DNA of 38,391 nucleotides from Candidatus Hydrogenedentota bacterium (GTDB lineage: Bacteria > Hydrogenedentota > Hydrogenedentia > Hydrogenedentales > CAITNO01). The notes under the pieces were generated by a model. That model saw only the letters and a program-made list of their open reading frames with translations, ran no database searches and had not been told where the DNA came from. The stretch spans positions 1 to 38,391 of the forward strand of contig JAKJCY010000018.1 of NCBI GenBank assembly GCA_022706235.1, read 5' to 3'. This document shows, piece by piece, positions 3,875 through 38,391 of the stretch; position 1 is the stretch's first letter; every line of letters starts with the position of its first letter. The translations under genes and the position numbers were made by a program.

Positions 3875-5194
3875 TTAAAAGGCGGCCTCTTCCAGTATCG
3901 CTTTCAATCGGCCCATGAATTGTGCCGCAACCGCGCCGTCCACGACCCGGTGGTCGCTGGACAGAGTCAGTTTCATGATGGGCCGGATATGGATGCCGCC
4001 GTCTATCACCACCACCCGGTCTTTGATTTGGCCGATGGCCAGGATTGCGCTGTCCGGCTGGTTGATGATGGCGGTGAAATGGTCCACGCCATAGGCGCCC
4101 AGGTTGGATACCGTAAAGGTGTTTCCCTGGTAATCATCGGGTAGCAGTTTCCCGGTCTGGGCTTTTTCCGCCAGCGCCTTGGACGCCGCGCACAACCCTT
4201 CCAGCGACAGCAGGTGGGCCTGGCGGATTACCGGCACAATCAGGCCGGTCGGCAAGGCCACCGCCATGCCCAGGTTGACATCGCCGCCCTGTTCAATGGC
4301 ATCGCCCAGCCAACGGGCGTTTACATTGGGAAATTCCCGTAGTGCCTTGGCTGTTGCGAATAACACCAGGTCGTTAAAGGATGCCTTGAAGGCCTTGTTA
4401 CGGGCGCGAAATTCCCTCGCCCCCTTCATGTCTACTTCCACGGTGACATAATAGTGCGGCGCGCTGTATTTGCTGGCGCTCATACGTTCGGCGATGATGC
4501 GGCGCATGGGCGTCAGCGGCACACGTTGGAGCGATGCAACTCCGGGTGCTGCGGCCGGTGCGGGTGCGGCGGGTTTTGCCAGGGCCTGGCTTACGTCGGC
4601 CTTGGTAATCTTGCCGCCGATGCCCGTGCCGGCAATACCGGCGGCGGCGATGCCCGCATTCTCAATCATACGTTTTGCCGTGGGTGTTATTTTTGCGGCG
4701 CTCTCCGGCGCCGCCGCCAGAACATCCGCCTCCAGAACACGGCCGCCCACGCCTGAACCCGCAAGCGCAGCGGCGTCAATGCCCCGTGCCGCCGCCGCCT
4801 TCCGCGCGCGCGGTGAAACAGGCACTTTGCCAGCGGGAACCGGCTGCACGGAAGCACTTTGCGGTGTCGGCGTGACGGATGCGACCGTGATTTCGGACTG
4901 TACCGCCATCGGCACACTGCCGCCCGCGCCGTACTGTGACAAGTCCGGAAGCGGTTCATCGGCCGTTCCCACGAGGGCAATGACCGTCAGTACCGGCACC
5001 TCCACACCTTCCGGCACCAGTATCTTGCGCAGCACCCCGGAGGCGGTGCTTTCACATTCCACTTCAGCCTTGTCGGTTTGAATCGAGAAGAGTGCTTCGC
5101 CCGTCTCGACCGGTTCGCCTTCCTGTTTGAACCACTTTACAATTTCCGCTTCTTCCACCGAGTTGCCCATTTTTGGCAATAAAATTTCCTGCAT
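3875..5194 (-). CDS. 2-oxoacid dehydrogenase E2 acyltransferase with two E3/E1-binding domains
   Basis: The product has 439 residues and transfers acyl groups from lipoate to CoA in a pyruvate- or branched-chain-type dehydrogenase complex. The lipoyl domain spans 1-80 with lipoyl-lysine Lys42 in TDKAEVE. Two peripheral-subunit-binding domains follow: about 126-161 (SPRARKAAAARGID...GGRVLEADVL) and 169-206 (TPTAKRMIENAG...GGKITKADV). An Ala/Pro linker leads to the catalytic domain from about 222, with the active site DHRVVDG (His415, Asp419). Most E2 proteins have one such binding domain. The frame extends upstream to 5281, but the ATG at 5194 has AAGGA before it and starts at MQEILLPKMG. It begins two bases after the mtlD stop, so translation is probably coupled. 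No E1 gene lies in the window, so pyruvate versus another oxoacid is undecided. Confidence 0.92.
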   Translation of the reverse strand: MQEILLPKMGNSVEEAEIVKWFKQEGEPVETGEALFSIQTDKAEVECESTASGVLRKILVPEGVEVPVLTVIALVGTADEPLPDLSQYGAGGSVPMAVQSEITVASVTPTPQSASVQPVPAGKVPVSPRARKAAAARGIDAAALAGSGVGGRVLEADVLAAAPESAAKITPTAKRMIENAGIAAAGIAGTGIGGKITKADVSQALAKPAAPAPAAAPGVASLQRVPLTPMRRIIAERMSASKYSAPHYYVTVEVDMKGAREFRARNKAFKASFNDLVLFATAKALREFPNVNARWLGDAIEQGGDVNLGMAVALPTGLIVPVIRQAHLLSLEGLCAASKALAEKAQTGKLLPDDYQGNTFTVSNLGAYGVDHFTAIINQPDSAILAIGQIKDRVVVIDGGIHIRPIMKLTLSSDHRVVDGAVAAQFMGRLKAILEEAAF

Positions 5195-5196
5195 TA

Positions 5197-6381
5197 TCAA
5201 GATTCCTTTACATTCTTGCGTAGCGCTTGAAACGCCCTTTGTATCATTATGTACGCTGTCGAATCCGGAGACAGGCCGCAAATTTCCCGCAGCACGGCGG
5301 CAACGCCGCCTTTCCGCAGCAGGGCCTGCACCTGCATGGCTGCCTCATCCCCGGGATTGTCATACAGGATGGCCGCCGCGGCGGCCATCGCCACCGCATG
5401 GGAGGCAATGTTCTGGGAACGGCACAGGCCCATGGCGCCGACCAGCCTGTCCTCCGGGCCCAGTTTGCGCACCGGGTCCCGCCCGACGCGGGCAATGGGG
5501 TCCGCGAGCGCCCGGTTATGGTACCGGTATATCAGGTCCTGCAGGTGCACTTCCAGGGAGGCAGCGTCCATGCCGTACTTTTTCACCAATGCACGGCACG
5601 TCTCCCGACCCGCAGCTTCCACCCGTGCCCGTACCGTGTCATCGCGTATCGCTTCATAGACATAGGCGTAACCCCGCAGGTGCCCCAGGTAGGCCGTGGC
5701 CGCATGGGTCAGGTTGTGGACGAAGAGTTTCCGCTCCACATAGGCGCCAAAGTCCGATGACGGCTTGAGATTCTTCAGCGGAGGAATGGGGCCGCGAAAG
5801 CCGCGCGCGTCCACCGGCAGTTCACAATAGGGTTCCACCCAGACCGCCAGCGGGTCCTCGGCGCGCTGTTCCGGGGTGATTACCGGCACCATCCGCCCGA
5901 TGCTGGCCTCGATGAAACCGACGCGCGTTTCCAGTGTTTCCAGCAGAGACGGGGCGAGATGCCCGGCGACCAGTCCGCGTACGTGCGCTTCGCCGTCTTT
6001 CAGGTTTTCGCAGATGAGGATATCAAGGGAGGCGGCATCTTTGTTTTCAAAGCGCAGCGCCACCGCACGCGCAATCACCGGGGCAATGTGCGGCAGTGCG
6101 TGGAGGCCTACCGCGGTGGAAGCGATGTCGGCACGGGCCAGGGCGGCGGCCGCATCCTCCAGCGACGTGCCGCTGATGGCGCTCACATCGGTAATGTGCG
6201 TGGTTTCCATGCCGGTGTCGGAAACGATGTGCAACGGATAGTTTCCCCGTTCGTTAAGCGCGTTTACAACGGAAGGCACCACATCGATAAAGGTGGTGTG
6301 GTACCCGCTTTCGCAGTAGATTTGCCCCAAAAATCCGCGGCCGATACTGCCCGCGCCGAAATGTACCGCCTGACCCTTCAA
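5197..6381 (-). CDS. mtlD: Mannitol-1-phosphate 5-dehydrogenase
   Basis: The product has 394 residues. The N-terminal Rossmann motif VHFGAGSIGRGFLGQ (6-20) is the signature of the MtlD branch of the mannitol dehydrogenase family. Further family blocks include ICENLKDGE, VGFIEASIGRMVP, ERKLFVHNLTHAATAYLG (substrate-binding Asn and His with the catalytic Lys) and the C-terminal helical domain. It interconverts mannitol-1-phosphate and fructose-6-phosphate with NAD(H) in the cytoplasm. GGAG precedes the ATG by 8 bases. It is the first gene of a five-gene minus-strand run, with its TGA two bases before the E2 start. No mannitol PTS genes are near, so its role may be in making or recovering mannitol. 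Joining mannitol metabolism to E2-E3 is uncommon. Confidence 0.93.
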   Translation of the reverse strand: MKGQAVHFGAGSIGRGFLGQIYCESGYHTTFIDVVPSVVNALNERGNYPLHIVSDTGMETTHITDVSAISGTSLEDAAAALARADIASTAVGLHALPHIAPVIARAVALRFENKDAASLDILICENLKDGEAHVRGLVAGHLAPSLLETLETRVGFIEASIGRMVPVITPEQRAEDPLAVWVEPYCELPVDARGFRGPIPPLKNLKPSSDFGAYVERKLFVHNLTHAATAYLGHLRGYAYVYEAIRDDTVRARVEAAGRETCRALVKKYGMDAASLEVHLQDLIYRYHNRALADPIARVGRDPVRKLGPEDRLVGAMGLCRSQNIASHAVAMAAAAAILYDNPGDEAAMQVQALLRKGGVAAVLREICGLSPDSTAYIMIQRAFQALRKNVKES

Positions 6382-25643: not shown

Positions 25644-27470
25644 ATGCTCTTCAGAGTTGTAATGCGTTTTGGGGCCGTGATGTGTCTGTTACTTTTTGCT
25701 GCAGCCTTGTCAGGCGTCATGAGGGTGGTGACGGCGCAGGAAGAGCCGGAAACGCGGATCATTTCCACCGGGGGAGAAGAAACCCCGTTATTTCATCCTG
25801 CGGACATGAATGCGGACTGGCGGTTGGTAATGAATGAAACCATTGCCTATCTGGCCGGATGGCAACAGGGCGGCAATCCCATAGATTATGCCATACGCGC
25901 AGCGTATTTGTGGCAGAATGGTGAATATTATATCTTCGAGGATGATGGTGGGGGGGCTCCGCTTTGCTGGGCGCTTCCAAAACCTGTCGAAGGGGAGGGC
26001 GAAAATAGAAATGTTGTATTCGTATTGATCGATGCCTGCCGCGAAGACAGGGTGGATGCGTTTCGTAACGGCGTTCCCGTGATGCCGTATCTATCGAGTT
26101 TGCCTGCCGTGCGCTTTCGCAATGCCTATGCGCCTGCCCCCTGGACGGCAGCCTCCATGATCAGTATATTTTCTTCCACCCATGTGGACACGCACCAGGA
26201 GCATATAGGCGCGTGCCCCTTTCCGGAAACGATGGAGACCATGGGCGAATATTTCAAGTCGGCGGGGTTTTCCACCTTTGGGGTCCAGACGAACGGTAAT
26301 CTTACCGAGGACCTGGGGCATGCACGGGGATATGACCAGTATGTGTATAATTCCAACGCGCCCGCGGATGTGGTAACCAGCACCGCTTTGTCACTTGTCG
26401 AAGAGGCTGCCTCTCCTTTTTTCCTCTACGTTCATTACATGGAGCCCCATGTTCCCTATACGCCGCCGCCGGTGTATCAGACGCTGATGGGGTATCCTCA
26501 TCCGGACCTGAGCCCGGAGGAACAGGCCATCGCCGAGGACTATATACCCTATCATCTCGACTATCTTCGGTATTATCTGGGATTACAGCCAGAGCTGACG
26601 TATGAACCATTATCCCCCCTGGGCTGTGACGCGGTCCGTTCGTTATATGACGGGGAAGTGCGTTTTGCCGATGATCAGTTGAACCTTCTGATAACGGGAA
26701 TATTAGAGGAGTATCCTGACACCATCATCGTTATTGCCGCCGACCATGGCGAACATTTCTGGGAACACAACTTTCTGGGGCATTCCCTTTCCCTGTATCA
26801 GCCGCTGGTTCATGCTCCCCTCTTCATCAAAGTACCCGGATATCCGCAAGCGTCTACGGACACCTTCGTAAGTGTCCTGGATTTGATGCCCACTCTGGCC
26901 GCCCTGTTGAATACGCCTGTGCGTTCCTGGTGGGAAGGACGTGACTTGTTCGGGGCGCGGGATCCCGAAGGTCCGGTATATGCCTGCGGTAAGACCCGGC
27001 CTCCCTGGCTGCGCGATTTGGAAATGGTATGCGCTGGCGGCATGAAACTGATGCGAGAATCCAATACAGGCCGGACTGAGTTGTATGATATATCATCGGA
27101 CCCGGAAGAACTGACGAATCTGGCTGATGCGCAGCCTGATGTCGTGGCAGCGATGACATCGCTCCTGCTGGTGCATCTGCTGGAAAATGCGCGGGCCAAT
27201 GGCCCAGACGTTGTCGTCAGCGTGTCACCGGAAGGCCCGTTAGTGGCGGGCGCTACGGTCCAGTTGACGGGACCCGAAGGCATGGGGCATAAGTGGTTCA
27301 AGGACGGGGCGCCCCTAAAAAATATTGTGTCCCGCATCGGCGGCTCCAATACCCGGATACTCACCATTCAGGGCCTGGTACCGGGGGATTCGGGGCAATA
27401 TGAGTGCATTGCCAATGATGAATCCTTGCATCTTGCCGTTACTTATCCGTACACGCTCAATGTGCTTTAG
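25644..27470 (+). CDS. Secreted sulfatase-like hydrolase with EF-hand-like N-terminal module and C-terminal Ig-like domain
   Basis: The product has 608 residues. A signal peptide covers about 1-31. Residues 51-108 form a small module opening with an EF-hand-like loop (D-x-N-x-D-W-R-L-x-x-x-E, Asp54 to Glu65), also found at the start of the protein at 36401. A Glu-Gly-Glu linker leads to an alkaline-phosphatase-superfamily domain: metal Asp130 in VFVLIDACREDR, nucleophile position Thr168 in APWTAASM, HYMEPHVPY, and metal site AADHGEHFWEHNFLGH. FGly sulfatases have Cys or Ser where this has Thr, so phosphoester or phosphonate hydrolysis, or phospho-transfer, is as likely as sulfate removal. The last 90 residues resemble an Ig domain (KWFKDGAPL, GDSGQYEC). 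AGGAGG stands 7 bases before the ATG at 25644. Confidence 0.85.
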   Translation: MLFRVVMRFGAVMCLLLFAAALSGVMRVVTAQEEPETRIISTGGEETPLFHPADMNADWRLVMNETIAYLAGWQQGGNPIDYAIRAAYLWQNGEYYIFEDDGGGAPLCWALPKPVEGEGENRNVVFVLIDACREDRVDAFRNGVPVMPYLSSLPAVRFRNAYAPAPWTAASMISIFSSTHVDTHQEHIGACPFPETMETMGEYFKSAGFSTFGVQTNGNLTEDLGHARGYDQYVYNSNAPADVVTSTALSLVEEAASPFFLYVHYMEPHVPYTPPPVYQTLMGYPHPDLSPEEQAIAEDYIPYHLDYLRYYLGLQPELTYEPLSPLGCDAVRSLYDGEVRFADDQLNLLITGILEEYPDTIIVIAADHGEHFWEHNFLGHSLSLYQPLVHAPLFIKVPGYPQASTDTFVSVLDLMPTLAALLNTPVRSWWEGRDLFGARDPEGPVYACGKTRPPWLRDLEMVCAGGMKLMRESNTGRTELYDISSDPEELTNLADAQPDVVAAMTSLLLVHLLENARANGPDVVVSVSPEGPLVAGATVQLTGPEGMGHKWFKDGAPLKNIVSRIGGSNTRILTIQGLVPGDSGQYECIANDESLHLAVTYPYTLNVL

Positions 27471-34198: not shown

Positions 34199-36169
34199 TC
34201 AGGCATAACACCGGATTTCGTAAATCCGCGCCTCCGGGCTTCCGTTGGTCGCGGTCACGTGTACACGCAGCGCGCCCGTGGTGATTGCCGGGAAGGTATG
34301 GCGGCGCAGGCGCTCATAGTTGCCGGTAATTTCCACGAGGGGGACCCATGCATCACTTTCCGGGGCCTGGTACAACACGCGGTAATCCCGCACGGTCTCC
34401 GGTTGCGGCCCCCGCACCTGGCCCTTTTTAACGTTGCTTTGTTCCGAGAGGGACAGTTCGCGGAAAAATCCCGTATCAAAGCAAAGCTGCACTTGCGACA
34501 GCGTTTGCGGTTCTTTCCAGCGCAGTTCGATCCAGGCGCCGTCGGAGGTCATGGGGCCGCCCCAGCGGTGGTCCCAGTGTTCGGGTATATCACGCACGAA
34601 TCCGGTAAGCACATTCGCCGCCTTGCTGCTTTCCACTTCGCCTGAAGCGACCACTTCAGAGGCCTTACGGGCCAGGTCCGCCGGGTCCTCGTTTTTCAGC
34701 TGCTTGATAGTCTGGTCGTCCCGGAGCAGGTGCTGTTGATAGGCCTTGAGCAGCGGCTTGTTGTCGAACAGCGCCTGCGGCAGGATGCCTTCTTTCACGC
34801 ACAAGGCGGCCGCGGTGCCGATGGCCTGTCCTTCCACGGAGCAGGTGCCCATGACCCGGGTGGAGGTCAGCGCCACGTGGGACGTGCTGATGTTGCGTCC
34901 CGCCATGAACAGATTGGGCACATTCACGGAGTACAGCGCGCGCAGGGGGATGTTGTAGACTTCGGGGATCTTAATGGAGTGGGAGGGGGGGATGTCGGAA
35001 TCGTAGAAGCCGCCGGAGGTGTGGTTGTCAAAGGGCCAGCCGCCGATGGCGACGGCATCCTCGAAGTCGCCGTTCTTGCCTTCGAGATCAGCCTGGATCA
35101 GGACATGGGGGCCGATGAGGCGGCGGCTCGAGCGTTTGCCCGGGATCATGCCCACCCAGTTCATGCCCCAGGTGGCGCTGTCAGGGTGGTTGCCGGAGTT
35201 CTTGATGTAATCCCACACGCCCATCACAATGGACAGCAGTTCAAAACGGATTTTCTCATTGTCGCGGATGGCGTCCAGTTGGCCGCCCCATTCGATCCAC
35301 CAGTACCCGTATTCCCAGGAGTGGGTCTTGCGCAGACGCAGCTGGTCGCTCGTGATTTTTTGCGCCCAGCGCGGCGGCGTGAAGGGGATCGGATAGCCAT
35401 AGTCGCGCGACGTAAACAAAATGCTGCTGCCCATGGTCTCCGGTCCGGCCGTTTCCGGCGCCAGCGATTCGTTGTACTGATCGCGCGCCTCGTGGCCCGT
35501 GCGGAATGCAGCGCCCGCCTCCAACCCGAGCCGGCAGTCGCCGGTGCAGTCAGCATAAAGGGTTGCCTGAATCCGGTAAATATGTTCGGTGAGATCATTG
35601 CGCACCCAGGCCCGGCGTATCGCTCCGTTTTCCATCTCCACGCGATACAAGGAGGCATCGAGGAGCAGCGTGATGTTCGGTTCGGAAACGATCTTGTCAT
35701 AAAGCATCAGGTCCCACAGTTCCCACGCCCAGTGGGGGTTGCGGACGGCGTCTTCGATGCGGAGTTCTTCGAGAATACCGCCTTCGCGCCAGCCGGGGTG
35801 GCCCTTATGATGGTTGGCGCCCACAATGTGCATGCGCACCTCGCTGCTCGCGTTGCCGCCCAGGCGCGACCGGTTCTGAACGAGCACCACCTTCGCGCCG
35901 TTACGCGCCGCCGCAAGGGCCGCGCACACCCCCGCCATGCCGCCCCCGGCGACCAGGAAGTCGCAGGAAAGGTCCACCGAGGTCATGTTCGGCTCATCGG
36001 CAGGAGGCCCCGCGGCTTTCGTGATAGCGTCAAAATCCGGCGGGGTGAAGGACGTTTCTTCCGCATGAATTTCCGGCACATGCACAGCGAGCGTATAGGT
36101 GGAAAGCGCGCCCAGAGCGCCGATGTTCCGTATGAAGTCACGACGGTTGCAGGGATGTTTTTGGGACAT
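34199..36169 (-). CDS. Tat-exported FAD-dependent oxidoreductase with C-terminal discoidin-like domain
   Basis: The product has 656 residues. A twin-arginine signal opens it (NRRDFIRNIGALGALSTYTLAVH, from residue 8). The FAD-binding motif is FLVAGGGMAGVCAALAAARNG (71-91, GGGMAG at 75-80), followed by RLGGNASSEVRMHIVG, YADCTGDCRLGLEAGA and the second FAD contact GRNISTSHVALTSTRVMGTCSVEGQAIGTAAA. This is the FAD-dependent oxidoreductase family (PF12831 type) common in PVC bacteria. The last 140 residues resemble an F5/8 type C (discoidin) carbohydrate-binding sandwich (HRWGGPMTSDGAWIELRW ... EIRCYA). It probably oxidises a sugar or glycan in the periplasm. AGGAGG precedes the ATG by 9 bases. 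The substrate is unknown. Confidence 0.87.
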   Translation of the reverse strand: MSQKHPCNRRDFIRNIGALGALSTYTLAVHVPEIHAEETSFTPPDFDAITKAAGPPADEPNMTSVDLSCDFLVAGGGMAGVCAALAAARNGAKVVLVQNRSRLGGNASSEVRMHIVGANHHKGHPGWREGGILEELRIEDAVRNPHWAWELWDLMLYDKIVSEPNITLLLDASLYRVEMENGAIRRAWVRNDLTEHIYRIQATLYADCTGDCRLGLEAGAAFRTGHEARDQYNESLAPETAGPETMGSSILFTSRDYGYPIPFTPPRWAQKITSDQLRLRKTHSWEYGYWWIEWGGQLDAIRDNEKIRFELLSIVMGVWDYIKNSGNHPDSATWGMNWVGMIPGKRSSRRLIGPHVLIQADLEGKNGDFEDAVAIGGWPFDNHTSGGFYDSDIPPSHSIKIPEVYNIPLRALYSVNVPNLFMAGRNISTSHVALTSTRVMGTCSVEGQAIGTAAALCVKEGILPQALFDNKPLLKAYQQHLLRDDQTIKQLKNEDPADLARKASEVVASGEVESSKAANVLTGFVRDIPEHWDHRWGGPMTSDGAWIELRWKEPQTLSQVQLCFDTGFFRELSLSEQSNVKKGQVRGPQPETVRDYRVLYQAPESDAWVPLVEITGNYERLRRHTFPAITTGALRVHVTATNGSPEARIYEIRCYA

Positions 36170-36299: not shown

Positions 36300-36328
36300 T
36301 TGACAAGAGTCGGGGGGGGGGGTACAAT
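36300..36328 (+). promoter_or_regulatory. Sigma70 promoter with 11-G spacer tract, likely phase-variable
   Basis: TTGACA (36300-36305), a perfect -35, and TACAAT (36323-36328), a one-mismatch -10, are exactly 17 bases apart. Eleven of the spacer bases (36312-36322) are an unbroken G run. Gain or loss of a single G would move the boxes out of the optimal spacing. The predicted start near 36335 leaves a leader of about 65 bases before the ATG at 36401. Confidence 0.8.
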
Positions 36329-36400
36329 ACGTCGAAATAACAAGAGTAGAGGCATATTTTTAAGTGCAGGGACTTTAACAATATCAAGGATGTCAACACT

Positions 36401-38391
36401 ATGCGGTACGTAGGAATGTGTTTTATGGCGGCGTGTCTTTGTGGTTCCATCTGCGCTTTTGCGGTGACAGGTGGCGCTCCTTCGGCGGTAAGGTCGTTGG
36501 AAACCGGAGGCAGCTATGACGACACGACAGGTCTCACCGACAACGACGTTGGCAGCGCGGAGGTTAAAGACGTCATCCCCCATCCGGCGGATGGAAATAC
36601 GGACTGGCGCCTGGTATTGAGCGAAGCCATCGCCTATCTGAGTGGCTGGCAACAGGGCAGCAACCCAATGGCCTATGCCATACGGGCAGCCTATCTATGG
36701 CAGAATGGCGAGTGGTATCACTACGATGCGGAGATGATCGCCCCTCTGTGCTGGGTGCTGGGAGCTGTTGAACCCGAAGGGGAAGGCGAGGGCGAATGTC
36801 AAGATGATGAAGACTGTGACGACAGCGACCTGTGTACGGACGACAGTTGCGACCCGGCCACGGGTTGCGTGCACACGCCGATAAACTGCGACGACGGTAA
36901 TGCGTGCACGACGGATGTGTGCGATCCGCTTGAAGGCTGTGTGCACACGCCGGTGTACTGCGATGACGGCGTGGCATGCACGGTGGACAGTTGCGACCCG
37001 GCGACGGGGTGCGTGAACACGCCGGACGACACGCTTTGCGATGACGGCAACGCATGCTCGGACGGTTCCTGTGACCCGGCGACAGGCTGCGTGTTCGCGC
37101 CGATAACCTGCGACGACGGCAACGCATGCACGGAGGACAGTTGCGACCCGGCGACGGGTTGCGTGTTTGCGCCGATAACCTGCGACGACGGCAACTCATG
37201 CACGGACGACGGTTGCGACCCGGCGACGGGCTGCGTGTTCGCGCCGATAACCTGCGACGACGGCAACGCATGCACAAACGACAGTTGCGACCCGGCTACG
37301 GGCTGCGTGTCCGTGCCGATAACCTGCGACGACAGCGACCTGTGCACAGACGACGGTTGCGACCCGGCCAGCGGTTGCGTGCAAACGCCAATAGACGTGG
37401 ACGACGGCATTGAGTGTACGGTAGACACGTGCGACGCGGCGACGGGTCACGTGAACGCGCCGAACGACGCTCTGTGTGACGACCTGATAGCCTGCACGGT
37501 GGACACGTGCGACGCGGCGACGGGTTGTGTGAACACTCCGAACGACGCTGCGTGCGACGACCTGATAGACTGCACGGTGGATACGTGTGACGCGGCGACG
37601 GGTTGCGTGAACACGCCGAACGACACTGCGTGCGACGACGGAAATCCCAATACGGTAGACACCTGCGACCCGGTAAGAGGTTGCGTGTACACGCTGAACG
37701 TTATGCTACCGGGCGATGTGCCACTCGAACTGGTGTGGATTCCTTCGGGCAGTTTCCAGATGGGCCGGTACCCGGGCGAGGCGGACAGTTACATGAGCGA
37801 AGACCCGCAGCATCCGGTGACGCTGGCGTACGGATTCTGGATGGGCAAGTACGAGATCACGCAGCAGCAGTGGCTGGCGGTGCGCGGTTCGTGGCCGGGC
37901 ACGGCGCCCTCTGCCACGTATGGCTTGGGCAACACCTATCCGGCCTACTACATCTCCTGGGATGACACGAAGAATTTTATTACGTCGCTGAACGCCCATA
38001 TCGTGAGCAGCGGGCAAGGGCCGCTGACGGTGCGTCTTCCCAGCGAGGCGGAATGGGAGTATGCCTGCCGGGCGGGCACGACCACGCGCTTCTACTTTGG
38101 CGATTCCCTGGGCTGTGACGGTCTATGTACGGATTGCGCGGCGGGCACGCTGCCGGGTAACCGGACGGCCTACATGTGGTACTGCGGCAACAACAGCCCG
38201 AACGGTAGCAAGGCCGTGGGCGGTAAAACGGCGAATGCCTTTGGCCTGTACGACATGAGCGGTAATGTATACGAGTGGTGCGAAGACGATTATCATAGTA
38301 GTTACACAGGCGCGCCGACCAATGGCAGTGCGTGGGTGGATTCGCCACGGGCCTCGTACCGGATGATCCGGGGCGGCTACTGGTACTACTA
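36401..38391 (+). CDS. Secreted Cys-rich repeat protein with FGE/SUMF1-type domain (3' end beyond window)
   Basis: The frame is open for 663 codons to the window edge; no stop is reached. A signal peptide lies at 1-22 (MRYVGMCFMAACLCGSICAF). Residues 61-118 form the EF-hand-like module shared with the hydrolase at 25644 (loop Asp64 to Glu75), followed by EPEGEGEGE. Residues 139-433 are 12 repeats of about 24 residues, pattern C-x5-C-x4-C-x5-C (CDDGNACTEDSCDPATGCV), like the Dictyostelium Cys-rich repeat (Dicty_CTDC). From 434 an FGE-sulfatase (SUMF1-type) domain begins: LVWIPSGSFQMG, GKYEITQQQWLAV, VRLPSEAEWEYACRAGT, GLYDMSGNVYEWCED, RGGYWYY. The catalytic Cys region lies beyond the window. 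Such domains outside the cytoplasm often bind ligands rather than make formylglycine. AAGGA precedes the ATG. Confidence 0.85.
   Translation, partial: MRYVGMCFMAACLCGSICAFAVTGGAPSAVRSLETGGSYDDTTGLTDNDVGSAEVKDVIPHPADGNTDWRLVLSEAIAYLSGWQQGSNPMAYAIRAAYLWQNGEWYHYDAEMIAPLCWVLGAVEPEGEGEGECQDDEDCDDSDLCTDDSCDPATGCVHTPINCDDGNACTTDVCDPLEGCVHTPVYCDDGVACTVDSCDPATGCVNTPDDTLCDDGNACSDGSCDPATGCVFAPITCDDGNACTEDSCDPATGCVFAPITCDDGNSCTDDGCDPATGCVFAPITCDDGNACTNDSCDPATGCVSVPITCDDSDLCTDDGCDPASGCVQTPIDVDDGIECTVDTCDAATGHVNAPNDALCDDLIACTVDTCDAATGCVNTPNDAACDDLIDCTVDTCDAATGCVNTPNDTACDDGNPNTVDTCDPVRGCVYTLNVMLPGDVPLELVWIPSGSFQMGRYPGEADSYMSEDPQHPVTLAYGFWMGKYEITQQQWLAVRGSWPGTAPSATYGLGNTYPAYYISWDDTKNFITSLNAHIVSSGQGPLTVRLPSEAEWEYACRAGTTTRFYFGDSLGCDGLCTDCAAGTLPGNRTAYMWYCGNNSPNGSKAVGGKTANAFGLYDMSGNVYEWCEDDYHSSYTGAPTNGSAWVDSPRASYRMIRGGYWYY
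36815..37699 (+). repeat. Coding tandem repeat array, 12 units of 72-78 bases
   Basis: Units encode about 24-26 residues each. The segment CGATAACCTGCGACGACGG recurs at 37101, 37173 and 37245 with exact 72-base spacing, and with one difference at 37317. Later units carry two extra codons (NDA). Unit 9 lacks its first Cys and has His for its last; unit 12 lacks the second Cys. The near-identical central units are prone to slippage or recombination, always in frame. Confidence 0.9.

Follow-up and report, generated by a model that had tools for sequence, protein, structure and literature searches.

Close to the end of a Hydrogenedentota contig, 11 uninterrupted guanines lie between the two elements of a sigma-70-type promoter, raising the question of whether this tract acts as an on/off switch for the gene downstream. 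The window, that is, the whole stretch of 38,391 nucleotides analysed, contains the following features around it (G000 is the window's own genome, G002 a sister genome; DGR, diversity-generating retroelement).

34199..36169, minus strand: divergent FAD-dependent oxidoreductase gene, bounding the promoter intergenic region
36300..36305, plus strand: −35 element TTGACA (6/6), from the sequence
36306..36311, plus strand: 5′ part of the spacer, AGAGTC (AAAAGTC-like in the homologs G002:C9 and C257)
36312..36322, plus strand: G11 tract, completing the 17-nt spacer (homologous copies have G10 and G15)
36323..36328, plus strand: −10 element TACAAT (5/6), from the sequence
36329..36400, plus strand: discriminator and 5′ leader, from the sequence
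36401..38389, plus strand: driven gene, still open where the contig ends (domain matches; full-length copy in G002:C7)
38351..38389, plus strand: start of the DGR variable region (39 bases, 4/4 mismatches to the G002:C7 template at adenines)

The stretch 36300–36328 is the sole site in the window with an 11/12 sigma-70 match at 16–18 spacing, and no other G run there comes near its G11, the runner-up being G7. The first-pass annotation had described the consensus −35 element, the near-consensus −10 element, the 17-bp spacing and the uninterrupted, unusually long tract, all of which were found to be correct, with exact coordinates. An AAGGA ribosome-binding motif (36386–36390) is present in the leader, 72 nt separate TACAAT from the ATG at 36401, and the transcript probably starts near 36335. 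The divergent oxidoreductase gene is outside the switch.

An unstable homopolymer between the −35 and −10 elements is known from the Neisseria meningitidis porA and opc promoters and the gonococcal fetA promoter (van der Ende 1995, Sarkari 1994, Carson 2000, as cited in PMC2791445). From the known biology of these promoters, spacer slippage is the natural reading of the window's tract (PMC2791445), a homopolymer likewise found between the −35 and −10 elements of a recognisable promoter. Unlike porA, opc and fetA, the window promoter belongs to an uncultured environmental phylum, its product is a DGR target, its −35 element is the consensus TTGACA, and length-dependent expression is for it a prediction. 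What it shares with them is the homopolymer in the spacer, a secreted or surface product and a tract of ~10–11 residues, the length on which the tracts of the three Neisseria promoters are centred.

A recurring class of G-tract promoters

The G11 run alone is unremarkable, runs of at least 11 G occurring at only four places in the window's genome, about what composition gives; what stands out is that it sits within a near-perfect promoter. We have to weigh the reading that the mononucleotide run arose by chance or drift in a promoter that works in the ordinary way and may itself be weak or dispensable; the composition-like count agrees with it. Across 68 genomes of the phylum, the pattern TTGACA-N15-19-TANNAT was found at 3947 sites versus 790 in the reversed control, with a spacer peak at 17 (65% of a listed sample), and from this excess and this peak most such sites are taken to be real promoters. 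In that many promoters, 0.1–0.5 spacers with at least nine G are expected by chance, versus ~7 independent ones seen. A search for tract-bearing promoters returned 10 places in 8 genomes of the 68 and none in the reversed control, while its C-tract version gave 5 places with runs of 7–9 only. Runs of at least nine G abutting TANNAT gave 16 rows (13 places) against one in the reversed control, and an exact TTGACA stood at promoter distance in 6 of the 8 independent non-coding places (chance ~3e-16). A looser search returned further, weaker members. A chance promoter is ruled out by this class enrichment and the controls, and since long G runs joined to exact promoter elements lie far above chance, a chance run in an ordinary promoter is an improbable explanation, already disfavoured by the class itself.

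About ten promoters with G tracts (G9–G15) were retained across the 68 genomes, mostly upstream of secreted-protein genes:

Window: G11, spacer 17
G002:C9: G10, spacer 16
G009:C28: G15, spacer 19
G025:C13: G10, spacer 15
G025:C41: G9AG5, spacer 20
G045:C154: G10, spacer 15
G018:C14: GGCG9, spacer 18
G014:C759: G12, spacer 17
G023:C152: G11, spacer 14
G006 and G011: G10, spacer 18

Matches in G040, G033, G057, G061, G036, G027, G017 and G047 were excluded or kept as weak on the ground of unsuitable spacing, reading frame or downstream gene. Most members lie ~29–94 nt upstream of genes for signal-peptide-like or pilin-like N termini, the pilin-like family (N_methyl/DUF1559) being the only Pfam family among the class products scanned. 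Their spacers spread over 14–20, versus the peak at 17 for ordinary promoters, the allowed spacer ranges having differed between searches. As supporting evidence only, such dispersion would be expected if each assembly froze one among several tract lengths.

In addition to the dispersed spacers, the homologous copies of the window promoter in G002 carry G10, G11 and G15. The G002:C9 promoter and leader are 82% identical to those of the window and are followed by another mature protein; from the −35 element through the signal peptide, the two differ by a one-base tract indel (G10/G11) and otherwise by substitutions only. The third copy, G002:C257, has G15 together with an altered −10 element at a contig end, and this was counted against a switch. 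The G11 of G002:C7 was rejected as an independent observation, since positions 35.0–38.0 kb of the window are identical to it (~3 kb) in genomes that differ by 4–10% elsewhere; this identity probably reflects recent exchange, cross-binning or co-assembly. The sister species G006 and G011 both have G10 at a flank identity of 92.6%. The equal tracts in these two pairs, window/G002:C7 and G006/G011, would fit stable tracts and were likewise counted against a switch. The comparison with related genomes that the first-pass annotation had proposed gave differing lengths among homologs, but equal lengths in the closest pairs.

The same promoter is carried by the same-genus genome Candidatus Hydrogenedentota RA.bin58, and, when the species genome collection was scanned for exact flanks, the sister genome was the sole match. 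Since most related genomes do not have the locus, the evolution of the tract can be traced only a short way. For the other tract loci, a joined-query ortholog search, dominated by matches to pilin-like N termini, returned beyond self matches the G006/G011 pair and, in G026, a single short match to a flank, with no G tract in the neighbouring sequence.

These comparisons also bear on whether the promoter is real but its tract keeps a constant length, either to tune spacer geometry or as the site of a regulator or special sigma factor (TTGACAAAn-C-Gn-TA), with slippage rare and non-regulatory. The identical lengths in the closest pairs would agree with this, as would the A-rich stretch found directly 3′ of TTGACA in most class members. 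However, the homologs differ (G10, G11, G15), the spacers are widely dispersed across members, and a fixed binding site would not need a pure homopolymer; special recognition of the C preceding the tract was rejected because long G runs generally have a C there (17/26). A fixed-length tract is for these reasons unlikely, though deserving more weight than a chance run.

Coding G tracts and the question of assembly artefacts

We have also found G tracts inside genes in G024, a member of another family of the phylum, in which four secreted-protein paralogs have poly-G directly after the signal peptide:

G024:C446: G12, in frame, at least 534 aa
G024:C326: G13, out of frame, 49 aa
G024:C516: G11, out of frame, 38 aa
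G024:C543: at least 23 G, interrupted by assembly Ns

Of the four, the 12-G copy alone is in frame. As a sequence pattern, this is the usual footprint of slipped-strand translational phase variation, and, as far as a comparison of assembled paralogs goes, it shows that G tracts of such size change length in this phylum. Intragenic poly-G/C contingency genes with translational phase variation are known from Neisseria, Campylobacter and Helicobacter, and the four paralogs resemble them in the poly-G after the signal peptide and in their in- and out-of-frame lengths. Unlike such genes, the tract in the window is transcriptional, and G024 is of another family of the same phylum.

Metagenome assemblies easily go wrong at homopolymers, and two related tracts fall at a contig end (G002:C257) or an N gap (G024:C543), as might be expected if the true tract were shorter or the contig had been mis-joined at the poly-G. 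However, unique sequence flanks the tract on both sides, the tract is found again in a second assembly, many genomes have such a tract at this position of a promoter, and true length heterogeneity also yields breaks at tracts. We consider an assembly or sequencing artefact very improbable, the least likely of the explanations weighed here.

The downstream gene and its retroelement

The gene at 36401 begins with a signal-peptide-like segment (36401–36463), followed by an EGEGEGE linker, 11 Dicty_CTDC Cys repeats and an FGE-sulfatase domain of the C-type-lectin fold; the full-length copy in G002:C7 has 694 aa. The secreted, Cys-rich repeat product proposed by the first-pass annotation is thereby borne out in its N terminus and its repeats, secretion itself being predicted, and a surface location seems likely. 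A stretch of ~130 bp at 25792–25931 of the window has matches at ~30 places in G002, one of them being the N-terminal part (DWRLVLSEAIAYLSGWQQGSNPMAYAIRAAYLWQNGEWY) of the tract-driven gene, and looks like a protein module widely shared in this genus. The FGE-sulfatase domain also matches open frames of 1600–2700 aa in G000:C44, G000:C501, G003:C23 and G036:C136 (~72–87% identity), often in several copies ~1 kb apart.

In G002:C7, the target gene is followed by an HRDC accessory gene (E 4e-17), a reverse transcriptase (RVT_1, 329 aa, with DGR-type IGNLTSQ and YMDD motifs) and a template repeat. The variable region is located in the C-terminal C-type-lectin/FGE domain of the target, and all 14 mismatches to the template over 60 nt fall at template adenines; across the whole variable/template core, the only departures from this rule are a single 3-nt indel and, at the extreme end, a C/T. 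Judged by these comparisons, the tract-driven gene is the target of a DGR, a point that the first-pass annotation had missed. Its own reverse transcriptase was not found in the incomplete assembly of the window's genome, where the contig ends first, and for the window the DGR link is drawn from the near-identical copy in G002. Since G036:C136 has the variable-region 39-mer of the window in one of its FGE domains as well, and some non-adenine differences from G002:C7 appear near 38120, the extreme 3′ end of the window may come from another copy or from a switch in the assembly.

Other DGR cassettes, with IGN-TSQ reverse transcriptases and adenine-specific template/variable pairs, were seen within this genus, in G000:C534 (24000–38000), G002:C35, G002:C255 and G003, and also in G036, and the G000:C534 target ends in RGGSWDDDDGNARSADRDRDNPDDRDSDGGF. 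The idea that a G tract generally marks DGR targets was rejected, the upstream regions of the targets at G000:C534, G003:C68 and G036:C290 being without G runs. Hairpins are found after DGR variable regions, and a long inverted repeat, CCAGAAGGGATGG...CCATCCCTTCTGG, is similarly placed in G002:C7 (reverse strand, ~5610–5680), where it closely follows the stop of the target and precedes the HRDC gene.

A Treponema denticola DGR with TvpA has a C-type-lectin-fold target, a secretion signal, a reverse transcriptase and an HRDC accessory gene (PMC4891356). The present element shares with it the secreted C-type-lectin-fold target, adenine-specific differences between variable region and template, the reverse transcriptase and HRDC (PMC4891356). 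The order here is target, HRDC, reverse transcriptase and template, whereas in T. denticola HRDC lies between the template and the reverse transcriptase; here a poly-G promoter precedes the target, whereas promoters are unmentioned in that paper (PMC4891356).

The proposed switch and its meaning

In the mechanism we propose, the poly-G tract would set the −35/−10 distance of a sigma-70-type promoter, and Gs gained or lost by slipped-strand mispairing during replication would shift the spacer off 17 or back to it, reversibly lowering or raising transcription of the downstream gene. With the tract upstream of the transcript start, mRNA and protein would be unaltered and promoter strength alone would change; the assembled state, G11 with the optimal spacer of 17, is expected to be the strongest. 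Slippage would decide whether cells make the protein, the binding face of which would be separately diversified by reverse-transcriptase-mediated adenine mutagenesis.

It is rather probable that the tract is such a slippage-based on/off promoter switch. The porA/opc-type switch claimed by the first-pass annotation is the best-supported reading, backed by related loci, and can be called partly supported: the exact promoter anatomy, the recurring class, the G10/G11/G15 homologs, the spacer spread, the G024 paralogs and the secreted, DGR-targeted product argue for it, whereas the equal lengths of the closest pairs do not. Slippage within a population, its effect on expression and the surface exposure of the product are inferred. 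More tentatively, and with somewhat less confidence than in the switch itself, the locus may be a two-layer device, in which the slippage promoter switches the secreted protein (possibly the co-oriented HRDC, reverse transcriptase and template repeat too) and the DGR rewrites its ligand-binding face, as one of a phylum-wide set of promoter and coding poly-G contingency loci.

A search of open papers, an incomplete literature, gave nothing relevant on phase variation or DGRs in Hydrogenedentes/Hydrogenedentota, nor on phase variation and DGRs combined; two diversity mechanisms would here be joined at one gene, with no earlier joining found in that search. The list of loci makes tract lengths directly countable in existing metagenome reads. 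The best-known switches based on a spacer homopolymer come from host-associated pathogens and are usually explained by immune pressure. A set of such switches in an uncultured environmental phylum, with a DGR target under one of them, would point to interactions with phages, predators or neighbours as a driver.
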